Shown here: positions 751-10,347 of the stretch, one piece after another
Layout: each line of letters opens with the position of its first letter
Numbering within the stretch: position 1 is the first letter of the stretch
DNA from: Trueperella pecoris
GTDB taxonomy: Bacteria; Actinomycetota; Actinomycetes; Actinomycetales; Actinomycetaceae
DNA: 64,000 nt
Direction: 5' to 3'
Assembly (NCBI RefSeq): GCF_014926385.1
Contig: NZ_CP053291.1
Span: 806,001 to 870,000 of the forward strand
Made by a program: the position numbers and the translations under genes
The notes under the pieces: model-generated
Told to the model about the DNA's origin: nothing
The model's database searches: none
The model's input: the letters and a program-made list of their open reading frames with translations, nothing else

Positions 751-1596
751 CTACGCCTGGCGCCGGAGCACCTGACTCGCGGCCTTGGCCAGCCACACGA
801 AGGCGAACAAACTTGCAAGAATGAGCACAATCGCTCCACCTGTGGGTAGGTCCCATACCCAGGATGCCCAGATGCCGAAGAAGGCGCCAGCCGATCCTAT
901 AACGGGGGCAATGAGCATCATGGGCAAGAGCCGGTCAGTCAACAAACGTGCCGTTGCCGCAGGCGCAATAAGGAGTGCCAGTACGAGGATGTTCCCTACG
1001 ATCTGCACACTCATGACGACGGCCGCGGCTATCGTCAGGTAGAGCACGACGTCCATGACACCCGCGCGTACTCCCAACGATTGGGCATAGGCACGGTCGA
1101 GGGAAACAAGCACGAGCTTCTTGTGAGCAAGCGCTAAAGCGGCGAGGATTAAAACCGTTCCGATCGCCACCGTACGTAGATCGCCCGGCTGAACGCCGGT
1201 CAGTGATCCGAAGAGGATCGATTCTAGCGAACCCGTGTAGGTCGATATACGCGCCATAATGACCAGGCCTAGCGCGAATGCGGCAGCGAAAAAAATCCCA
1301 ATGACGGAGTCTTCCCCGATTTTGCGATTCTGAGTGAACAAAGCAATCAGGAGCGTCACAACTACGCCGGCGATCGCGCCGCCCAAGAGCACCGATCCAC
1401 CCAGCGCGAAAGCAACCGCAATTCCAGGAAATACAGCATGAGCGAGTGCGTCCCCAATAAAACTCATGCCACGCAAAACCGTATGGACACCCACAGCGCC
1501 GCAAATGATGGCAGACAGAACGGCCACGATGAGTGCGCGCTGAAGAAAGGCAAGCTGTGGATTAGTGAGGTCAGCAAGGAAATCAACGAAACTCAT
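751..1596 (-). CDS. ABC-3 family metal permease of an anchored-repeat transporter
   Basis: This 281-residue, strongly hydrophobic protein has about eight membrane segments and the ABC-3 (ZnuB/MntB/TroC) pattern GDALAHAVFPGIAVA near residues 48-62. It would form the membrane channel for Zn2+ or Mn2+ import, partnered by the ATPase encoded just upstream (4-base ATGA overlap at 1593-1596) and the binding lipoprotein at 3295-4818. It is the last gene of the minus-strand operon that begins at 7993. In subfamily terms it corresponds to the permease of the anchored repeat-type ABC transporters described in propionibacteria and other actinobacteria; that assignment rests on gene context rather than on residues unique to the permease. 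Confidence 0.93.
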   Translation of the reverse strand: MSFVDFLADLTNPQLAFLQRALIVAVLSAIICGAVGVHTVLRGMSFIGDALAHAVFPGIAVAFALGGSVLLGGAIAGVVVTLLIALFTQNRKIGEDSVIGIFFAAAFALGLVIMARISTYTGSLESILFGSLTGVQPGDLRTVAIGTVLILAALALAHKKLVLVSLDRAYAQSLGVRAGVMDVVLYLTIAAAVVMSVQIVGNILVLALLIAPAATARLLTDRLLPMMLIAPVIGSAGAFFGIWASWVWDLPTGGAIVLILASLFAFVWLAKAASQVLRRQA

Positions 1597-2315
1597 GAGC
1601 CCAATCCAATCGTTCGCAATAGTGCGGAATCAGGACGCACCTGAAAGGTGTCAATCCATATCTGCGGATCACGCATATTCTTCGGAGCATCAGCTGCACG
1701 GATCGTTCCAGAAAGAAGAGCGATTCTGTGGGACATTCCTACCGCTTGAGTGAGGTCATGAGTCGACATCAGGATAGCGACCCCGGCCGTCGACAGCGCG
1801 GTGAAGAGATCCGTCAACGAATCTTGGGTGGGATGATCCAAACCTGTGAAGGGCTCATCAAGAAGGAGCAGACGCGGCTTAGGTGCGAGAGCACGCGCGA
1901 TCAACACACGTTGCTTTTGCCCACCGGAGAGTTCGTCGAGTGTACGATCGCGTAAATCCATCATGCCGACCATATCGAGAGCGTCATATACTGCACGCCA
2001 GTGTCCCGGCCTGGCCCATTGCCAGGGGCGCATGCCAGCCTGTAGCGAGGTCATCACGGTCTCTTGGACGCTGATGGGATAATTCCACGCGATGTCGTGG
2101 CGTTGGGGAACATAACCTGGGGCGCCTGCGCGTTCGATATTTCCCGAGGTCGTGGGGATGAGCCCCATGATGGCACGCATGAGGGTGGTCTTGCCGGCTC
2201 CATTGGGGCCCAACAGTCCCACAATTTCGCCCTCGCCGATGTCGAGGTTGACGGCGTGGAGGATCTGCCGGCCCGAGAGCGAAACGTTGACGTCGTTAAG
2301 GCTGAGAACGTTCAC
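1593..2315 (-). CDS. ABC transporter ATPase, metal import
   Basis: A 240-residue nucleotide-binding subunit with every expected motif: Walker A GPNGAGKT (residues 36-43), Q-loop region QRHDIAWNYP (about 71-80), signature LSGGQ (129-133), Walker B LLLDEP (150-155) and H-loop STHD with His186. It energises import through the ABC-3 permease at 751-1596. Its start overlaps the end of the preceding repeat protein gene by 4 bases and its end overlaps the permease start by 4 bases, so the three are translationally coupled. Length and motif spacing match ZnuC/MntA-type ATPases. Confidence 0.95.
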   Translation of the reverse strand: MNVLSLNDVNVSLSGRQILHAVNLDIGEGEIVGLLGPNGAGKTTLMRAIMGLIPTTSGNIERAGAPGYVPQRHDIAWNYPISVQETVMTSLQAGMRPWQWARPGHWRAVYDALDMVGMMDLRDRTLDELSGGQKQRVLIARALAPKPRLLLLDEPFTGLDHPTQDSLTDLFTALSTAGVAILMSTHDLTQAVGMSHRIALLSGTIRAADAPKNMRDPQIWIDTFQVRPDSALLRTIGLGS

Positions 2316-3292
2316 TCAACATCCCCGCGGTCGGCCAGTGCAGCAGATTGCGCTGCCCGCGTGCGCTTGCGTGCCAGAAGGAAACCGGCCAGGCCGATGG
2401 CGGCAAGGCCAATAATGCCAGTTGCGACGAACACGCCGGTGCGATCGGTGCTGCGGCCTGTTGAGGCAACTGAAGCTGGCTCACTCGAGGTTTTCTCCGG
2501 GCCTGATTGCGAGGAAGTGGTGGCTGAGGGAAGAGCGGTGGCAACGGCGTCGTCGACGACGGCCCACGCCTGATCGACGGTGGTTTGAGAACCGACTGCG
2601 ACAGTGACAAATGCGGGTGCACCGACGGTCTGGCCGTCCTTCAACGTCGCCGTAAAGGTCAGGCGAAGCCGATGTACGCCGGGCTCCGTAAAAGCCCAGT
2701 TCACGTGCGTATGGGTGTTGAGCTCAACGGCGATTGGCTGAGCTTCCTTTTTCTTCGAATCCCAAAGAACATTGGGACCTTGGAAATTACCTGCCTGGAC
2801 AAACGCGGTGAAATCTCCCGGCCCGTCATGCCCATCGAAAACGATCGAAACAGTGCCATTGACACCCTCGATAACGGCAGGATCCTGAGTGTTCCACCCT
2901 AACCACGGAACGGCGGCGATTTCCTGTTGAGGAATTACCCAAGCTTGCTTTCCGCCCACGAAATCGTAGCCTTCGGGCACGTCCAGCCGGGCGGTGTCAC
3001 TAACTTTGTAGACGACGTCGTTAGTGTGCCGCCAAGTAGGGGAAGCGGACGTATCATCACGGGCGAGCACCTGCCATTGGCCGTCAATGAGACGCGGCCC
3101 CATGTCGACGTGCCCAGCCTCAATGACGGTGCGTTGGCCAATGGGAGCTACGGCCTCGTTAGCGTCGACTCGCTGGGTGAGGGCCGGATCAACTGCAGTG
3201 GAGCCGTTATCAGTTGTGCCCGTCGTGGCATAAGCAGGGCCTGTCACGAGCGAAGCGAGCATACCGAGGGTAACGATTTGGCGTATTTTCAT
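2312..3292 (-). CDS. Membrane- or wall-anchored single-repeat surface protein of the metal transporter
   Basis: This 326-residue exported protein begins with a signal peptide (residues 1-22, ending PAYA). The body is one copy of the repeat that defines this transporter type, closing with the histidine motif HTHVNWAFTEPG at 194-205. A Ser/Thr/Pro-rich stretch (250-285) leads to a membrane segment at 287-307 and a basic tail. VASTG at 275-279 could be a degenerate sortase signal, but no clear LPxTG is present, so simple membrane anchoring is equally possible. It lies between the binding lipoprotein (2-base gap) and the ATPase (4-base overlap). Likely role: holding or relaying metal at the cell surface; this is inferred from context. 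Confidence 0.85.
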   Translation of the reverse strand: MKIRQIVTLGMLASLVTGPAYATTGTTDNGSTAVDPALTQRVDANEAVAPIGQRTVIEAGHVDMGPRLIDGQWQVLARDDTSASPTWRHTNDVVYKVSDTARLDVPEGYDFVGGKQAWVIPQQEIAAVPWLGWNTQDPAVIEGVNGTVSIVFDGHDGPGDFTAFVQAGNFQGPNVLWDSKKKEAQPIAVELNTHTHVNWAFTEPGVHRLRLTFTATLKDGQTVGAPAFVTVAVGSQTTVDQAWAVVDDAVATALPSATTSSQSGPEKTSSEPASVASTGRSTDRTGVFVATGIIGLAAIGLAGFLLARKRTRAAQSAALADRGDVE

Positions 3293-3294
3293 TC

Positions 3295-4818
3295 TTATCC
3301 TTCAAATTTCCATGCTGGATAGGCGCCTGGATCTAGGCACTTCTTGAGTTCGTTAGTGTTGGCGATCATGAGATCAACATAAGTAGGAGTGTCAGGCATG
3401 AGGGTATCGGAAGATAGGGAACATACTTCGATGCCAAGCCCATCAGCGATCGAGGTTAGTTCTCCACGTCCTGATCTGGTTGAACGCTCAGTGAAGACGG
3501 CAGGGACCCCAAGATCTCGTAACGTGGCGGACAAGATAGCGAGCTGGCCTGCCGATGGCTCGAGAGATGGGTTAGCTGAAGCGAAGCCTGTGATTGTTAA
3601 ACCGTAGGCGTTGGCGAGGTAGCCGTACGCATCGTGAGCGGTGACGAGCCGGCGGTTCTTTTTTGGAATCGTTGCAAGAACGTTGGCCATCCACCGATTG
3701 AGTTTTTCTAACCGCGCGATGTATGCTTTCGCGTTTTCTTGAAAAGTTTGTGCGTGTTCAGGTGCGATTGTGCTGAGTCGTGCTTGGATGATTTCAGCGA
3801 AGGCGATGGCGTTACGTGCGTCGAGCCACATGTGTGGGTCGACTTCGCCATGCACATGTTTGCCGATAACAGCTTGAGCGAGTACCCACGCATCGTCCCC
3901 TGGTTTTCCCAGGAAGCGCCATTTGGGGTCGGCAGGCACTTGCGTTCGAGTGGCGTGAGGTACTGCCACGACGCCGTCAACAGGCTTACGTTCGAAACTT
4001 TTGCCTTTTTCTTCGCCACGGTAGCGGAGATTTCCATCGAGGCTGGCGAGAAGATCTACGTGGCCAGTTGCGAGCGCCCGCGGACCGGCGTCGACTCCTA
4101 CCGCGAATTCTATAGTGGCACTGGAAAGGGGCTTATCTTCGTGCAGTGCTTCGAGGGTGAGCTGGTAGTGTCCTGGCTTGGTAAAGCCCCAGGACATGTG
4201 GGTATGTGAGCCGAGGGGAAGGGAAAGTTCGTCATCGCCTAGCCCATCGGAGCTGTCGAGCCAGATGGAGGGCTGACCAAAGACACCGGTCGTGAAGGCC
4301 GAGATATGTCCGGGCCCCTTGGCATCGATCGCACGGAAAGTGACAACACCTGGGTCGGAGTACTTTCCTTCGACGCGCAAGCCCAACCATACGGTGTCGA
4401 GCGCTCTGTCTTCGACGAGGGGAATATGATATGCGCCCATGGCCACGGATTCATCGCCGAGCTCGACGAGGGGAGAGCCTTCTGGCAGGTTGGCACTCAC
4501 CATTTCCCGTATCGCCGTGTTTTCAAGTAATAATCCGTTTGAAAAGGCTGCCTTGGCACGGGTTACCTGACGCAGCATGGACAGAGGCGGCTCGTAGGTG
4601 TGCGGGTCGGAAGTTGGTGGGACGAGCGAGACGACGTCGATCGCCTCGCCCGCCACGTTCTTCACCATATCGGCCACGATTGGCGTAGTTGCAACAACGA
4701 CTGAGGCAGACCCTGCCTGGGCCTGTGGGAGAGCACATCCGGTCAGCACGAGGCTGACCGCGAGGAGCAGACGGGAGGGGCGGGCAAGCCCGCCCCTCGA
4801 CGTTGTGTTGTTATGCAC
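3295..4818 (-). CDS. Metal-binding lipoprotein (ZnuA/TroA type) with inserted surface repeat
   Basis: This 507-residue solute-binding protein carries a lipobox (LVLTGC, Cys28) and starts at GTG 4818. The TroA-type metal ligands are recognisable: His73 in DPHTYEPP, His329 in DPHMWLD, His395 in TAHDAYGY and Asp471. Normal family members are about 300 residues. The extra length is an insertion of about 190 residues (roughly 130-325) between the first and second ligand. It contains the same repeat as the neighbouring surface proteins, including HTHMSWGFTKPG at 205-216, and the beginning of a second unit (GHVDLLASL). The start overlaps the end of the large wall protein gene by 8 bases. Known family: the substrate subunit of anchored repeat-type ABC transporters. 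Zn versus Mn is not decided by sequence alone; Zur-like boxes favour zinc. Confidence 0.92.
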   Translation of the reverse strand: MHNNTTSRGGLARPSRLLLAVSLVLTGCALPQAQAGSASVVVATTPIVADMVKNVAGEAIDVVSLVPPTSDPHTYEPPLSMLRQVTRAKAAFSNGLLLENTAIREMVSANLPEGSPLVELGDESVAMGAYHIPLVEDRALDTVWLGLRVEGKYSDPGVVTFRAIDAKGPGHISAFTTGVFGQPSIWLDSSDGLGDDELSLPLGSHTHMSWGFTKPGHYQLTLEALHEDKPLSSATIEFAVGVDAGPRALATGHVDLLASLDGNLRYRGEEKGKSFERKPVDGVVAVPHATRTQVPADPKWRFLGKPGDDAWVLAQAVIGKHVHGEVDPHMWLDARNAIAFAEIIQARLSTIAPEHAQTFQENAKAYIARLEKLNRWMANVLATIPKKNRRLVTAHDAYGYLANAYGLTITGFASANPSLEPSAGQLAILSATLRDLGVPAVFTERSTRSGRGELTSIADGLGIEVCSLSSDTLMPDTPTYVDLMIANTNELKKCLDPGAYPAWKFEG

Positions 4819-7800
4819 GGCGCTTCCTGATTGCGAGCGCGATGCCCGCGCCTAGGAGAACAACGCTGAATCCTGCAAGCGTAGACACGGTTGCACCGGT
4901 GTGCTTGAGTGCCTTGACCTGGCTTGAGGCCACGTGCTTACCTTCGGCTTTCAGCTTTGCGATCTGCTCGGGCGAGAGCTGGCAATCCTTACCTGACGGA
5001 GTCTTGCCGACCCACTCGGTCTTGAAGTACTTGCCATTCTTCTTCTCCACACCCGGGGGAAGCTGGCCTGCTGAGCCGGAGGCTCCGCCGAACCAACGGG
5101 TGCCAACTACCTGTCCGAGGTTGCCGGAGGAGAAGACTGCGAGCTTACCGGGGCCGCTGACGTTTGACAGAGTCCACTTAACCGTTCCGGTGGTACCGGA
5201 AACAATCGAGGGATGCTGTGTGTTCGCACCCACCCATGGCACGTTGGCAACTTGGGATGATGAAATCATCCAGATGTCGGATCCGGCCGGAGCGATGAAA
5301 TCAATGCCTGCGGGGGCCTTAGCCTTCGAGGCAGGGCCAAGTCCGAAGATCAAGGTATTGGGATCAACCCATTTCGCGGGTTGATTACGATCATCCTTGA
5401 CCTTGACGTAAAGGTTGTCACCTTCGAGGATGGAACCAATATCGAAATGGCCAGAATTGGCATTACCGGATCCGCCCACATTGAAGGTGAGAGTGCCGGT
5501 TGCCTGTGCACGCTTGCCGTTCTTGAGAGTGGCGGTCTGCGTAAGGGTGACCTTGTAGGTGCCAGGCTTGGTGAAGACCCAGTTCGGATGTGCGTGGGTG
5601 TTTGCCGGAACAGTGTAGGAGCCACCCGCGGATTTTGCTGCTGGAGCTGCGACTTCCTTTTCAATCGGGGTTGGGATGCACTGTTCAACCTTAGGGGTTG
5701 CCTTGGCATTTTGGGTACCCGTGGATGCTTTGCCGTTCGTGGTTGTTCCGGAACCGTTCGGGTCCGTTCCGCCCGTGTGCGAATTCTTGGAGTTCGACTT
5801 GTCGGGTGTGGTGTTTGCTTCGTCTGTCTTCTCAACCTTTCCAGGAGTCTTGTCGTTAATGACGAAGCGGATTGTTCCAGGCTGGGACGTCACCGATGTT
5901 CCGTCCTTGTTAGTTGCTGAGGCCTGGATAGAGAACTCGTATGTTCCTGGCTTGGTGAACACCCAGTTTGCGTGGATGTGAGCTGGGCCCGCATTTGTGA
6001 TCGTGGTGCCTTCAGACTTGGTCGAGTCCACGAGCAAGTTTTGTAGCTCGGTCAGGCCAGAAGTGAAGGCCCAGGCCTTTCCACCTTCTGGTGTGGAGGT
6101 TGCCTTGATCTTCAGCGTCGTTCCCTTCGGGAATGTCGATGTTGAAAGACGTTCGGTTGAGAATCCTGGCCAGACAAGACCGTCAGCCTTCGTCTGTGGC
6201 AGGACGAAAAGTGCGGTTCCAAGCTCTCCGAGGAAGTTGTAGGATTTGTCGCCGAATACGCGCTTGGATCGAGCGTGATCGTTAATGGTGGCGGTTAGAG
6301 TAACTGCGTCCGGATCGCGTAAGACTGTCTTCTTAGCGTGGGTACGAGAATCGTCACCGACGATGACGCGGAGCGTCCCATCGGGCATCGCTATGGGGCC
6401 ATAATCAAGATGTCCGTCATTGATGGTGACCTTCTCATTGAGAACTGTCATGTCTTGATTGTCGGACTTGTCCTTGGAGTCGTTAGTGGCCTTGTCGGTG
6501 GGGTTTTGATCTTCCGAGTCCGCGGAGGACCCGTTGTCACCTTGCGAGGAGAAAGTTCCCTTGCCAGAGAATGTGGCATTATCGGCATCAATCTCAAATG
6601 TTGTCTGGCCGGCATCGTACTGGGTAGCGGGAGTGACCTTCCAGATGGCGTGGCCTTGTGTACACGTTTCCTCGAAGTACTCCTTGGGGAGTGTCATGGT
6701 GCGTGAGGAGCGAGTAGATGTGAAGTTGACAGGACAGTTCGTAGTGTCGGTCAGGTCCTGCCCGAAACCGCCCGAGAGCGTGAATTCGATGTTGCGATCT
6801 TCTGGCATCGCTGTGATGACATAGTTATCGCCCTTGAGCTCATTGGTGATGGTGAAGTTCTTGCTCGTCACGTTCACGGGATCAAGGTGATGCTCGGGAG
6901 TGTCAGACTCCGCAGGCGTCGGGAATTCGCCAGACTTATCGGTGGAGGTCGCTTCCTTACCGTGGGTGTAGTGCACGGGTGCAGTGATCCAACGCGGGGC
7001 AGGCGAATCAGCTGCGGGGACATAGACGGCTTGGAACGTGGATTCCAAAGATCCGATCATCTCGTGCCACGTTGCTTTTCCTTCAGATAGCGAGGCTTGC
7101 GCGAGGTAGTGGCCATCGATATAGAAAGCCACAGTACCGGTGGCCTTCTTGTCGCCCGTGTCGAATGTTAGGGCTGTCATGGGGTCTTCAGTGTCGGTGG
7201 GTGACAGGGTGAAGGTGTGAGTGAAAGACTTCGATGAGCCTTCAGCTTTCGAGTCGTTGTAGGCTTCGATGACGTTTTCGAGCTCAGCCTTGCTGGGATC
7301 GGAGCCGCCCACCTGCCAGAACATCTTTTGCGGCTCAGAAGCAACGAACTTGCCTGTAGTCGCATCACGGTAGGAGGTACGATAGGTCAGCGTGTAGCTG
7401 CCAGGCTTGGTGAACGTAGTGCTAATGTGGCTGTGTGCACCGGCCGTGAGCTGGATAAAACGGTAGTCGTTTAGGTGGCTAGAGATGAAGCGCTCCGGCG
7501 GATCGCCCTCGAAAGGCTCGCGGAACATTTCCATACGTCCTGGCCCCTCGAAGTCGACTAGCTCGAGCTGGAAAGTTTTATCGCGGAATTTTTCTACCGG
7601 GACGGCGGCATCGGCTCCGTAGCCGATCCACAGGTTGGAAGCGCCGCCCGTGGCGTTCACGGGGCTGCCCAAATACAGATGACTGTCAGGTTCGCCGAGG
7701 AAGCTGAGCATATCCCCTTCGGGGACGGTGTAGTAGAAATATTGCTTTCCGTCGTCGTTATGGCCTTGGTGGAGCCAGTGGATTCCTTCTTCAAGCGCGG

Positions 7801-7993
7801 TGAGTTGCTGACCTGATGCCTTGAGGGTCAGGCCATTGTTCTCCCAGTAGGCCTTGGGGGAATCGGTATGACCCTGTGAGAAAAGGGCCTTATCTTCAGA
7901 TGGGATCGCCGAGGCTGGAGCCATCGTGGCCCCGGCTAAGGCAATTGTTGCGGCAGCGATTGTGAATCGCTTTGCCCACGTCAGACGTGACAA
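4811..7993 (-). CDS. Large wall-anchored repeat protein, first gene of the metal-import operon
   Basis: A 1060-residue exported protein translated from a TTG at 7993; the signal peptide (1-29, ending ASA) and an upstream AGGGTG support this start. Three copies of the His motif HxHxxxxFTKPG occur at about 186-198, 671-683 and 799-811, each at the end of a repeat unit. Two low-complexity Ser/Thr/Asn/Asp-rich linkers (485-515 and 715-768) separate the units. The C-terminus has LKHTG (1029-1033), a hydrophobic segment and the tail RKRRA: the layout of a sortase substrate with a non-standard signal. As the first gene of a five-gene operon with a metal ABC importer, it probably captures metal or metal complexes at the wall. 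Base composition of the 3' half of this operon looks lower in GC than the core genes. Confidence 0.88.
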   Translation of the reverse strand: MSRLTWAKRFTIAAATIALAGATMAPASAIPSEDKALFSQGHTDSPKAYWENNGLTLKASGQQLTALEEGIHWLHQGHNDDGKQYFYYTVPEGDMLSFLGEPDSHLYLGSPVNATGGASNLWIGYGADAAVPVEKFRDKTFQLELVDFEGPGRMEMFREPFEGDPPERFISSHLNDYRFIQLTAGAHSHISTTFTKPGSYTLTYRTSYRDATTGKFVASEPQKMFWQVGGSDPSKAELENVIEAYNDSKAEGSSKSFTHTFTLSPTDTEDPMTALTFDTGDKKATGTVAFYIDGHYLAQASLSEGKATWHEMIGSLESTFQAVYVPAADSPAPRWITAPVHYTHGKEATSTDKSGEFPTPAESDTPEHHLDPVNVTSKNFTITNELKGDNYVITAMPEDRNIEFTLSGGFGQDLTDTTNCPVNFTSTRSSRTMTLPKEYFEETCTQGHAIWKVTPATQYDAGQTTFEIDADNATFSGKGTFSSQGDNGSSADSEDQNPTDKATNDSKDKSDNQDMTVLNEKVTINDGHLDYGPIAMPDGTLRVIVGDDSRTHAKKTVLRDPDAVTLTATINDHARSKRVFGDKSYNFLGELGTALFVLPQTKADGLVWPGFSTERLSTSTFPKGTTLKIKATSTPEGGKAWAFTSGLTELQNLLVDSTKSEGTTITNAGPAHIHANWVFTKPGTYEFSIQASATNKDGTSVTSQPGTIRFVINDKTPGKVEKTDEANTTPDKSNSKNSHTGGTDPNGSGTTTNGKASTGTQNAKATPKVEQCIPTPIEKEVAAPAAKSAGGSYTVPANTHAHPNWVFTKPGTYKVTLTQTATLKNGKRAQATGTLTFNVGGSGNANSGHFDIGSILEGDNLYVKVKDDRNQPAKWVDPNTLIFGLGPASKAKAPAGIDFIAPAGSDIWMISSSQVANVPWVGANTQHPSIVSGTTGTVKWTLSNVSGPGKLAVFSSGNLGQVVGTRWFGGASGSAGQLPPGVEKKNGKYFKTEWVGKTPSGKDCQLSPEQIAKLKAEGKHVASSQVKALKHTGATVSTLAGFSVVLLGAGIALAIRKRRA

Positions 7994-8015
7994 GGAGGAT
8001 CACCCTGCTTTCGTG

Positions 8016-8030
8016 TGAGAATGGTTTTCA
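8016..8030. promoter_or_regulatory. Zur-like box 1
   Basis: TGAGAATGGTTTTCA has the TGAnAA...TTnTCA dyad of actinobacterial Zur/Fur operators. It overlaps the predicted transcription start of the minus-strand metal operon, a repressing position. Confidence 0.65.
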
Positions 8031-8036
8031 ACAACA

Positions 8037-8065
8037 AGCGTAATGGGAATCAGTATCAATACCAA
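8037..8065 (-). promoter_or_regulatory. Promoter of the metal-import operon
   Basis: On the minus strand TTGGTA (8060-8065) and TACGCT (8037-8042) are separated by 17 bases. The predicted start near 8030 is about 37 bases ahead of the TTG at 7993. One Zur-like box sits in the spacer and another at the start site. Confidence 0.5.
8044..8058. promoter_or_regulatory. Zur-like box 2
   Basis: TGGGAATCAGTATCA shares the TGrGAAT...T.TCA core with the other two boxes and lies between the predicted -35 and -10 of the metal-import operon, where a bound repressor would block RNA polymerase. Confidence 0.55.
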
Positions 8066-8101
8066 TGATGGTGGTCGAATTGTGGTGCGTTGCGCAGTAG
8101 A

Positions 8102-8116
8102 TGGGAATGGTTTTCA
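8102..8116. promoter_or_regulatory. Zur-like box 3
   Basis: TGGGAATGGTTTTCA differs from box 1 at one of 15 positions. It lies 13 bases upstream of the predicted -35 of the arsR-like gene, so it could serve either divergent promoter. Confidence 0.6.
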
Positions 8117-8129
8117 TAAAATAAACATA

Positions 8130-8158
8130 TTGCAATGTATTTATATGTGATGTAGATT
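8130..8158 (+). promoter_or_regulatory. Promoter of the arsR-like gene (leaderless transcript likely)
   Basis: TTGCAA (8130-8135) and TAGATT (8153-8158) are 17 bases apart. The start would fall about 7 bases after the -10, at the GTG of the ArsR-like gene (8165), giving a leaderless mRNA, which is common in actinobacteria. Confidence 0.55.
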
Positions 8159-8164
8159 TGAGAT

Positions 8165-8482
8165 GTGGATATGGAGAGAGGACTTACTGAAGCAGCTCGG
8201 TTGTTTAAAGTCTTGGGTTCAGACTCAAGGCTGGGGATCTTGCGTTTCCTCCAGGAGCATCCGGCTACTGTCGGAACACTGGTGGAAAAGACTGGGATGA
8301 CTCAGCCGCTCGTCTCTCAGCATCTTCGAGTCCTCCGGCATACCGGCCTCGTAACCCGGGACCGGCAGGGGAAAGAAGTGACATACCAGATTGCTGATTT
8401 CCATGTATCTCACTTGATTGAGGACGCCATCATCCATGCCCTAGAAAACCGCCCGGAAGGCAAAGGAGAAGACCATGACTGA
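8165..8482 (+). CDS. ArsR/SmtB-family metal sensor repressor with alpha-5 zinc site
   Basis: A 105-residue winged-helix repressor; the recognition region is TQPLVSQHLRVLRHTGLV. The last helix reads DFHVSHLIEDAIIHALE, which lines up with SmtB Asp104, His106, His117 and Glu120. All four zinc ligands of the alpha-5 site are therefore present, while the alpha-3 Cys motif of ArsR/CadC sensors is absent. It should release DNA when zinc is abundant. The GTG at 8165 is favoured because it coincides with the predicted transcription start; ATG 8171 is the alternative. Its end overlaps the His-rich gene by 8 bases, so the two are co-expressed. It probably acts with Zur at this locus; its operator is not obvious. 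Confidence 0.9.
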   Translation: MDMERGLTEAARLFKVLGSDSRLGILRFLQEHPATVGTLVEKTGMTQPLVSQHLRVLRHTGLVTRDRQGKEVTYQIADFHVSHLIEDAIIHALENRPEGKGEDHD

Positions 8483-8768
8483 GCATGCCAAGGCAGAGCA
8501 CACCACCGAAGAGCACAAGCACGGCGAGGGCTGCGGCCACGTCGCGATCCAGCACGGCGATCACGTCGATTACCTGCACGACGGCCACCGCCACGCCGAG
8601 CACGGCGACCACTACGACGAGCATGAGGCGAAGGCCGAGCACACCACCGAAGAGCACAAGCACGGCGAGGGCTGCGGCCACGAGGCTGTTCAGCACGGCG
8701 ATCACGTCGATTACCTGCACGACGGCCACCGCCACGCCGAGCACGGCGACCACTACGACGAGCACTGA
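8475..8768 (+). CDS. Histidine-rich metal-binding protein made of two 47-residue repeats
   Basis: A 97-residue cytoplasmic protein with no signal peptide or membrane segment. More than a quarter of its residues are His. Two nearly identical units each contain HKHGEGCGH, HGDHVDYLHDGHRH and HGDHYDEH, rich in candidate zinc ligands with one Cys per unit. It overlaps the zinc-sensor gene by 8 bases, which suggests zinc buffering or delivery to a partner. From memory, short single-unit proteins with the GCGH...HGDHVDYLHDGHRH pattern are widespread in actinobacteria and are sometimes annotated, without basis, as zinc permeases. The doubled form here looks like a recent duplication. Function is inferred, not shown. 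Confidence 0.85.
   Translation: MTEHAKAEHTTEEHKHGEGCGHVAIQHGDHVDYLHDGHRHAEHGDHYDEHEAKAEHTTEEHKHGEGCGHEAVQHGDHVDYLHDGHRHAEHGDHYDEH
8490..8768 (+). repeat. Tandem duplication, 141-bp unit x 2
   Basis: Units 8490-8630 and 8631-8768 are almost identical at the DNA level. Differences are confined to a few bases near the start, a patch of about nine bases encoding VAI versus EAV, and the last codons. Such high synonymous identity implies recent duplication or ongoing homogenisation. Confidence 0.9.
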
Positions 8769-9678: not shown

Positions 9679-10347
9679 CTACTGTGGCTTGATGGTGACG
9701 CGGATACGGCGAGCCGCCGGGAGGGGGAGGGACACGTCACGGCCGTCGATCGAAATCGTCGTCAGGCCCAATACTGGGGTCTGTGAAAGGATGGCCGCGG
9801 TGGTCGAGGGGCATACGCCCAAGTCCCCAAGGAAGGTCAGCACGTCGGCGTCGTCATCGTCAACTTGCTCGATTCGCACATCCTCGCCTGTCGGCACCTC
9901 ATGAAGAAGAAAGACGTCCATGGCCGGCATCGTGCCGTCCGGGCGCGGGATCGGATCTCCATGCGGATCGCGGAGGGGATGGCCTAGCACGTCGTCAACG
10001 GCATCGACGAAACGGTCGGAGACCGAATGCTCGAGCGCCTCGGCTTCCTCATGAAGCTCCTGCCAAGCGTAGCCGAGTTGGCTGTGGAGGAACGTCTCGA
10101 TGAGGCGGTGCTTGCGCACCATGCGTAACGCTTCGCGCTGCCCGAGTTCCGTGAGGCGAATCGGGCCGTAACGCCGGTGGTCCACGAGGCCCTGGGCGGC
10201 AAGCTTCTTGACCGCCTCAGTGACGGTCGAGGGGCTCAGGCCCATTCGGCGTGCAAGTTCGGTGGGGACTACCTCATCGCCTGACCATTCGGAGATGGAC
10301 CAGATCGTCTTGAGGTAGTCCTCATTCGAGGCTGTCAGATCTGCCAT
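9679..10347 (-). CDS. DtxR/MntR-family metal-dependent repressor
   Basis: A 222-residue regulator with an N-terminal winged helix (1-70), a dimerisation and metal-binding domain (71-145) and a C-terminal SH3-like FeoA domain (about 150-222). Ligand positions look MntR-like: Asp10 in NEDYL replaces Met10 of DtxR, and the primary-site helix reads EALEH (Glu103, Glu106, His107) where DtxR has CRWEH. His80 and His99 match the ancillary site. This favours Mn2+ over Fe2+ as co-repressor, an inference from ligand type. It overlaps the purine phosphorylase gene by one base (TAATG), so the two are transcribed together. Targets may include other manganese uptake genes outside the window. Confidence 0.9.
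   Translation of the reverse strand: MADLTASNEDYLKTIWSISEWSGDEVVPTELARRMGLSPSTVTEAVKKLAAQGLVDHRRYGPIRLTELGQREALRMVRKHRLIETFLHSQLGYAWQELHEEAEALEHSVSDRFVDAVDDVLGHPLRDPHGDPIPRPDGTMPAMDVFLLHEVPTGEDVRIEQVDDDDADVLTFLGDLGVCPSTTAAILSQTPVLGLTTISIDGRDVSLPLPAARRIRVTIKPQ

Follow-up and report, generated by a model that had tools for sequence, protein, structure and literature searches.

Genes at the divergent locus

Positions 7994-8164 of the window, which is the whole 64-kb stretch of DNA that was analysed, form the exact gap between a minus-strand operon for a surface protein and an ABC transporter (the surface/ABC operon) and a plus-strand gene for an ArsR-family repressor (Table 1). The surface gene, which leads the operon, has a TTG start ending at 7993, and its product carries an LKHTG sorting signal at the C terminus. 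Both models for anchored-repeat ABC operons (TIGR03772 and TIGR03773) are passed at their curated cut-offs, and in relatives the three remaining genes again line up with the surface gene.

Table 1. Features of the locus, in positions of the window. Bit scores of the Zur boxes are those of the matrix built from relatives.
Feature	Position	Strand	Remarks
Permease	751-1596	-	named from sequence
ATPase	1593-2315	-	named from sequence
Small anchored protein	2312-3292	-	named from sequence
Anchored-repeat ABC transporter substrate-binding protein	3295-4818	-	TIGR03772, 514.8 bits (cut-off 350.45)
Surface protein, cell wall, choice-of-anchor M	4811-7993	-	TIGR03773, 368.7 bits (cut-off 190.3)
Candidate Zur box 1	8013-8033		core 8016-8030; 11.6 bits
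Putative surface/ABC operon promoter	8037-8065	-	-35 TTGGTA (8060-8065), 17-nt spacer, -10 TACGCT (8037-8042); by eye
Candidate Zur box 2	8041-8064		core 8044-8058; 21.0 bits, rank 1 in the window; strongest of the three
Second 7-1-7 unit overlapping box 2	8050-8064		4.4 bits, rank 5
Candidate Zur box 3	8099-8119		core 8102-8116; 12.7 bits, rank 2; 1 bp upstream of putative arsO
Putative ArsR operator (arsO)	8121-8144		palindrome ATAAACATATTGCAATGTATTTAT; conserved upstream of arsR
Putative arsR promoter	8130-8158	+	-35 TTGCAA (8130-8135) inside arsO, 17-nt spacer, -10 TAGATT (8153-8158); by eye
ArsR/SmtB-family repressor, alpha5 zinc-site type	8165-8482	+	NF033788, 85.1 bits (cut-off 55)
Histidine-rich protein, 97 aa	8475-8768	+	ORF overlaps the end of arsR

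The arsR gene starts with GTG at 8165. An earlier reading of this DNA, made from the sequence only, had described its product as a zinc-type sensor. The alignment is in keeping with this, as D-x-H-x10-H-x2-E stands at the position of the alpha5 zinc site of SmtB and CzrA. We take D-x-H-x10-H-x2-E/H in alpha5 as the definition of that site. The protein aligns with SmtB, CzrA and NmtR, the last SmtB ligand likewise being Glu, and D78, H80, H91 and E94 are invariant in all 11 aligned ArsR sequences. NmtR, a nickel sensor, is also a close match. Since this ArsR retains residues that match the alpha5 ligands in the alignment, we expect it to repress in the apo form and to be released by zinc.

The overlapping gene downstream encodes a protein with two repeats containing HGDHVDYxHDGHRH, and no Pfam or NCBIfam family matches it at an E-value of 0.001. 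Relatives that are 76-86% identical lie behind arsR in all four other family loci that were aligned. In one genome, probably of Georgenia satyanarayanai (L240 and L112), the genes for zinc-free ribosomal proteins, ArsR, the histidine-rich protein and a COG0523-like GTPase (assigned by sequence) stand in one same-strand row. In the window, a gene for an MntR/DtxR-like regulator lies at 9679-10347, about 1.2 kb past the start of the histidine-rich gene; its NCBIfam scores are below the cut-offs.

Candidate Zur boxes and the surface/ABC operon

The sequence-only reading had reported three near-identical Zur-like boxes in the gap, and the 15-mers TGAGAATGGTTTTCA, TGGGAATCAGTATCA and TGGGAATGGTTTTCA are indeed present as the cores of boxes 1, 2 and 3. 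Near-identity applies to boxes 1 and 3, which differ at one base (14 of 15 positions shared), but not to box 2, which agrees with the other two at 10-11 of 15 positions and, as judged by eye, sits in an imperfect inverted repeat of 21 bp (8044-8064). The boxes fit the actinobacterial Zur motif (7-1-7 or 10-1-10) with inverted symmetry.

We scored them with a matrix built from sites upstream of the zinc-free ribosomal-protein (rpmB) operons of relatives, the genome's own site being excluded. Thirty L28 loci were sampled; six had no recognisable start and one had no site, which left 23 instances, or 18 unique 21-mers (17 once the genome's own 21-mer was removed). A palindromic Zur pattern served as the seed for these instances, which were then refined, so the matrix is not fully de novo. 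In the 64-kb window its three best sites are boxes 2, 3 and 1, in this order, and the next site scores 6.7 bits. When the 171 bp were put through 1000 Markov shuffles, the lowest of the box scores was reached at least once in eight shuffles and twice in none.

The pattern of the sequence-only reading, which was derived from these boxes, has three exact matches in the window, all within the 171 bp; with up to two mismatches it is not enriched across the window (five matches versus 2.96 expected, with 16 of 100 shuffles reaching five). A less circular search, with the published 7-1-7 consensus of Streptomyces coelicolor Zur, TGAAAATGATTTTCA (PMC2823685), yields four matches in 64 kb at up to three mismatches, versus 0.56 expected. 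Three of the four fall on boxes 1 and 3, box 1 being counted on both strands, and box 2 is missed at this threshold even though it is the best site by the family matrix. The pattern TGRNAATNATTNYCA, which was widened after the boxes had been seen, has 16 distinct sites genome-wide at up to one mismatch, versus two for the reversed-pattern control. Three of the 16 are the boxes in the 171 bp, three lie just before genes (161104, ribosomal operon; 2211550, surface protein; 551057, secreted protein) and one lies in a convergent gap (1964899). Five others are inside ORFs and were taken as decoys (224355, 253458, 281574, 424576 and 940900), and four were left out of this classification (219303, 256180, 745116 and 1015615).

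The reading presupposes a Zur homologue, and one is encoded at C1:1207535, behind znuA-znuC-znuB. Its closest solved structures are 3mwm (6.9e-40), 7vo0 (1.2e-39) and 2o03 (1.6e-35), of which we take 3mwm to be S. coelicolor Zur (ScZur) and 2o03 to be Mycobacterium tuberculosis FurB. The residues aligned with the zinc ligands C79, H84, H87, E105 and H36 of ScZur are kept, and the position of H41, a residue suggested to take part in a dimer-dimer contact, is occupied by Asp. Every match of the protein to the FUR-family models of NCBIfam is below cut-off. A second FUR protein, PerR/Fur-like, is encoded at C1:2117076.

The motif had also been expected at other zinc genes. In this genome it accompanies znuA, the zinc-free ribosomal operon and the gene of another anchored surface protein. 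The matrix was applied to 132 kb of the genome, a biased sample of stretches picked for pattern sites or related genes. The top site of these 132 kb (28.3 bits) is the one Zur-like box at C1:161101-161121 (L063), which separates the L28-L33-S14-L31B operon from a divergent gene for an MRF-related protein. We call this operon zinc-free because L33 and S14 have no cysteine and L28 has a single one. The MRF-related protein matches a GTPase model below the cut-off, and the match begins at profile position 57, such that an N-terminal part may be missing. A 14.5-bit site overlaps the start of znuA; it is outside the 16 pattern sites and has two mismatches to a Zur search pattern. At C1:2211547-2211567 (L061), a 24.7-bit site lies 34 bp before the gene for a second choice-of-anchor M surface protein, which stands head to head with a TrkH-like potassium transporter gene (by sequence).

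Other Zur-like sites were seen in the same scan. A 17.9-bit site (C1:551054-551074; L059:3055-3075) is directly before the gene of a secreted protein that is trypsin-like by its GDSGGP motif and has an LAHTG-type signal, and for which no NCBIfam family was found. Another, of 12.7 bits (C1:225861-225881; L064:3862-3882), is about 60 bp before a 390-aa ORF. A 21.0-bit site (C1:1964896-1964916; L068:2897-2917) is in a convergent gap where no target gene was seen, and a further site of 12.9 bits lies 179 bp from it, inside a predicted gene.

Two of the boxes had been placed over the spacer and start of the surface-operon promoter, a placement that agrees with the putative promoter of Table 1: the start inferred from it is near 8030, which puts box 2 within the spacer and box 1 at the start site. 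The -10 element (TACnCT) and the 17-nt spacing are kept in four other members of the genus (G110, G055, G122 and G129), but the -35 element is not conserved, reading TTCATA in the last three. A scan of 7600-8600 for consensus sigma-70 promoters found none, for either the surface operon or arsR. The one close orthologous region is that of G110, whose ArsR is 79% identical. Against a background of 61 of 96 identical positions outside features, 13 of 15 are identical in the core of box 1 and 19 of 21 in the box-2 repeat (8044-8064). The core of box 3, at 11 of 15, is hardly above this background, but the corresponding site in G110 still scores 13.3 bits.

A Zur site of at least 13 bits is found 36-67 bp from the start of the surface gene in five of five other genus members (G110, G055, G122, G129 and G097), a count that left out G079, which also has TIGR03773 matches. 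A search for ArsR at 1e-8 gave no match in three of the five (G055, G122 and G129), and only box-1/2-type sites are found before their surface genes at 9 bits or more. The two-box pair with its 28-bp offset is present in this genome, G110 and G055. Elsewhere in the family, such operons have Zur sites ahead of the substrate-binding gene (L113, L114, L116-L118 and L123) or of the surface gene (L112 and L135). Since Zur sites precede the operon in all five genus members, three of them without an ArsR gene, the predicted boxes 1 and 2 are assigned to the surface/ABC operon.

Zinc-loaded Zur at boxes 1 and 2 very probably represses this import operon. Repression is the natural interpretation, as it has been demonstrated in Corynebacterium diphtheriae for cmrA and at the znu locus (PMC6711530; PMC12445094). 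Predicted control by Zur also favours zinc over manganese as the cargo, and the zinc binding reported for ZnuE and ZnuF of C. diphtheriae (PMC12445094) is in line with this assignment.

The putative arsR promoter and its adjacent Zur-like site

Box 3 had been described as lying just upstream of an arsR promoter. It does lie upstream of the putative promoter, but the description missed the palindrome that follows it, a probable ArsR operator (arsO). At up to three mismatches, arsO has one site in the genome, and the stretch 8119-8142 is identical to G110 at 22 of 24 positions. We compared arsR loci in two sets, a family set from 37 of 66 matched genomes and a wider set consisting of the best 80 of 312 relatives, of which 28 are Microbacterium; Georgenia is present in both. 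A single ArsR sequence did not find these relatives, and an alignment of 11 ArsR sequences did. The operator (at least 15 of 22 consensus positions) precedes arsR in 24 of the 37 family loci and is missing from 13. It precedes arsR in 70 of the best 80 wider loci, and a histidine-rich gene follows close behind arsR in 52 of these 70.

The distance from arsO to the start codon is exactly 20 nt in 17 of the 24 operator-bearing family loci and 19-21 nt in 21 of them. This fixed distance suggests a leaderless transcript, with a -35 element inside the operator and a -10 element 17 nt further on, and the arsR transcript is thus probably leaderless at GTG 8165.

In 18 of the 24 family loci, from six genera, arsO has a Zur-like neighbour that scores 4 bits or more; the other six loci have none. 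Fifteen of these sites are 0-3 bp from arsO and three are at 8 bp; the chance of an adjacent site under a null that ignores relatedness is about 0.006 per locus. Among the operator-bearing loci of the best 80 of 312 relatives, 43 of 70 have such a site, 37 times at exactly 2 bp from arsO, and 27 have none above 4 bits. The 43 positive loci come from 14 named genera and four further assemblies, 22 of them being Microbacterium; when Microbacterium is left out, 21 of 45 are positive. An alignment anchored on arsO, with one locus per genus (33) and no Zur matrix, gave a weak consensus in the box region and no de novo motif. At one locus (L119:8172-8192, in G013), an extra Zur-like site of 21.3 bits lies 44 bp upstream of arsO, in addition to the adjacent site of 6.4 bits.

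In one Microbacterium genome, the pattern YGANAAYSRTTNYCR, chosen to include the arsR site, has six distinct sites in 3.7 Mb, and the reversed control has none. The six include one before a znuA-like gene and one between znuC- and znuB-like genes, as well as the arsR site. A narrower pattern, for which 20 loci of this genome were checked, matched the arsR site and indicated no other zinc genes; the neighbourhoods of two ZnuC-like ATPases found with it were taken as those of unrelated ABC genes.

The Zur-like site and arsO also precede arsR at loci where the upstream gene is co-directional and unrelated to zinc by sequence (G054, G096 and G183). Because the pair recurs behind such genes, it belongs to arsR and not to a divergent zinc gene. 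There is thus a double dissociation, with Zur sites at the surface operon in genomes without ArsR, and a Zur-like site with arsO at arsR genes that have no zinc neighbour. By this comparison the predicted box 3 is assigned to the arsR promoter and not to the surface operon. Its centre lies about 56 bp before the inferred arsR start and its end 13 nt before the inferred -35 element; the 21-mer spans -66 to -46 of the start codon.

A proposed two-regulator model and related systems

Together, these features make it likely that two metalloregulators read the 171-bp region as a divergent zinc switch, with box 3 probably activating. Integration of Zur with an SmtB-like sensor was the proposal of the sequence-only reading. 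Its components are present, namely the Zur protein, the motifs and the alpha5 site, and joint control is what we infer from them. When zinc suffices, zinc-loaded Zur on boxes 1 and 2 would cover the start and spacer of the promoter and shut off the importer. On the other side, apo-ArsR bound to its own operator over the -35 element would repress arsR and the histidine-rich gene, and zinc would derepress both by releasing ArsR. Zinc-loaded Zur at box 3, upstream of the -35 element, would activate the arsR promoter or help to displace ArsR, and both sensors would then raise the histidine-rich, presumably zinc-buffering, protein at high zinc. Displacement is a conceivable alternative route because a footprint like that at zitB of S. 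coelicolor would overlap the left end of arsO. Activation by zinc-loaded Zur at box 3 is a reading that we hold at slightly better than even confidence, and some caution is due for this box because of its low conservation in G110, the only close orthologue.

Zur had entered the sequence-only reading as a repressor active at high zinc; at box 3 an activator appears more likely than a second repressor, the geometry being nearer to that of zitB. As a second repressor, Zur would act at high zinc and ArsR at low zinc, keeping expression of arsR near constant. The smtB-zur genes of M. smegmatis provide a precedent for this arrangement, with coregulation by SmtB and Zur and apparently constitutive expression (PMC7174638). 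The Zur site of that system is at -23, however, compared with -66 to -46 here, upstream of both the inferred -35 element and arsO, and the distance of box 3 from the start recurs in relatives. Repression would also silence the presumed zinc-buffer gene exactly at high zinc. We therefore consider a second repressor rather unlikely. It is less probable still that box 3 is a mere auxiliary Zur site of the divergent surface operon. The box does share the 171 bp with boxes 1 and 2, both of which are better conserved in G110, and multiple Zur binding upstream of a promoter is possible (PMC5472717). Nonetheless, the Zur/arsO pair recurs widely, also beside upstream genes that are unrelated to zinc, and the three genus members with no ArsR match show, at 9 bits or more, box-1/2-type sites only before the surface gene.

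Two further alternatives concern all three boxes. Fur-family boxes resemble one another and the genome does have a second FUR gene, such that the PerR/Fur-like protein, and not Zur, might read them. This is improbable, since zinc-uptake genes and genes for zinc-free ribosomal proteins have the motif in front of them, both here and in relatives. A chance similarity in an A+T-rich intergenic stretch would fit the lack of window-wide enrichment of the original pattern at two mismatches and the five of 16 genome-wide sites that lie inside ORFs. The shuffles, the matrix ranks and the conservation contradict it, and we regard it as highly implausible.

As a tentative generalization, whose chances we place a little short of even, a Zur box 1-3 bp from an arsO that covers the -35 element may serve in many Actinobacteria as a two-sensor zinc gate, where zinc-loaded Zur would activate or displace ArsR and zinc would release ArsR, and through which a metallothionein-like histidine-rich buffer would be induced over a wide range of zinc; in this genus the element would have merged with a Zur-repressed import promoter. 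The histidine-rich protein, widespread and without a family match, would then be a likely zinc buffer. Zinc deficiency and zinc excess are read by different regulators in most bacteria (PMC5472717). A conserved two-sensor element, if true, would show the very high-affinity sensor Zur being blended with a second sensor, ArsR.

Parts of this arrangement have counterparts in known systems. The cyanobacterial smtB/smtA pair likewise places an alpha5-type ArsR gene next to that of a small zinc-binding protein. Its smtA product is a Cys-rich metallothionein; here there are histidine-rich repeats and an extra Zur site instead. In the smtB-zur and zitA system of M. smegmatis, as proposed here, one promoter, that of smtB, is under both Zur and a repressor of the SmtB family, and the two are modelled as co-repressors; unlike here, no SmtB motif was identifiable, and the accessible part of that report mentions no histidine-rich gene (PMC7174638). 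Nearer in geometry is S. coelicolor zitB, where Zur acts as an activator at a box lying 8 nt in front of the -35 element, with a footprint from -78 to -40 that extends upstream at higher zinc (PMC5472717). The candidate box 3 likewise lies just upstream of a -35 element, a putative one, of a presumed zinc-excess gene. However, the spacing here is about 13 nt, roughly half a helical turn off, and the zitB target is an exporter for which the accessible text mentions no ArsR operator (PMC5472717).

For the import side, the Corynebacterium Zur regulons are the nearest match. In C. glutamicum (PMC2823685) and C. diphtheriae (PMC6711530; ZnuEFG, PMC12445094), genes for surface-anchored proteins and operons of the znu type have Zur sites upstream, which in C. 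glutamicum overlap core promoters; in the accessible parts of these papers, unlike here, neither an adjacent ArsR operator nor an arsR/histidine-rich operon is mentioned. Zur boxes before anchored zinc proteins are thus already known. Among the open-licence PMC papers listed by literature searches, no title or abstract opening described a composite Zur-box/ArsR-operator element or the histidine-rich family. Within that scope, what appears to be new is the Zur/arsO pair before arsR/histidine-rich operons, and its fusion with an import promoter, and the predicted Zur control of wall-anchored zinc proteins extends to Actinomycetaceae a theme known from Corynebacterium.
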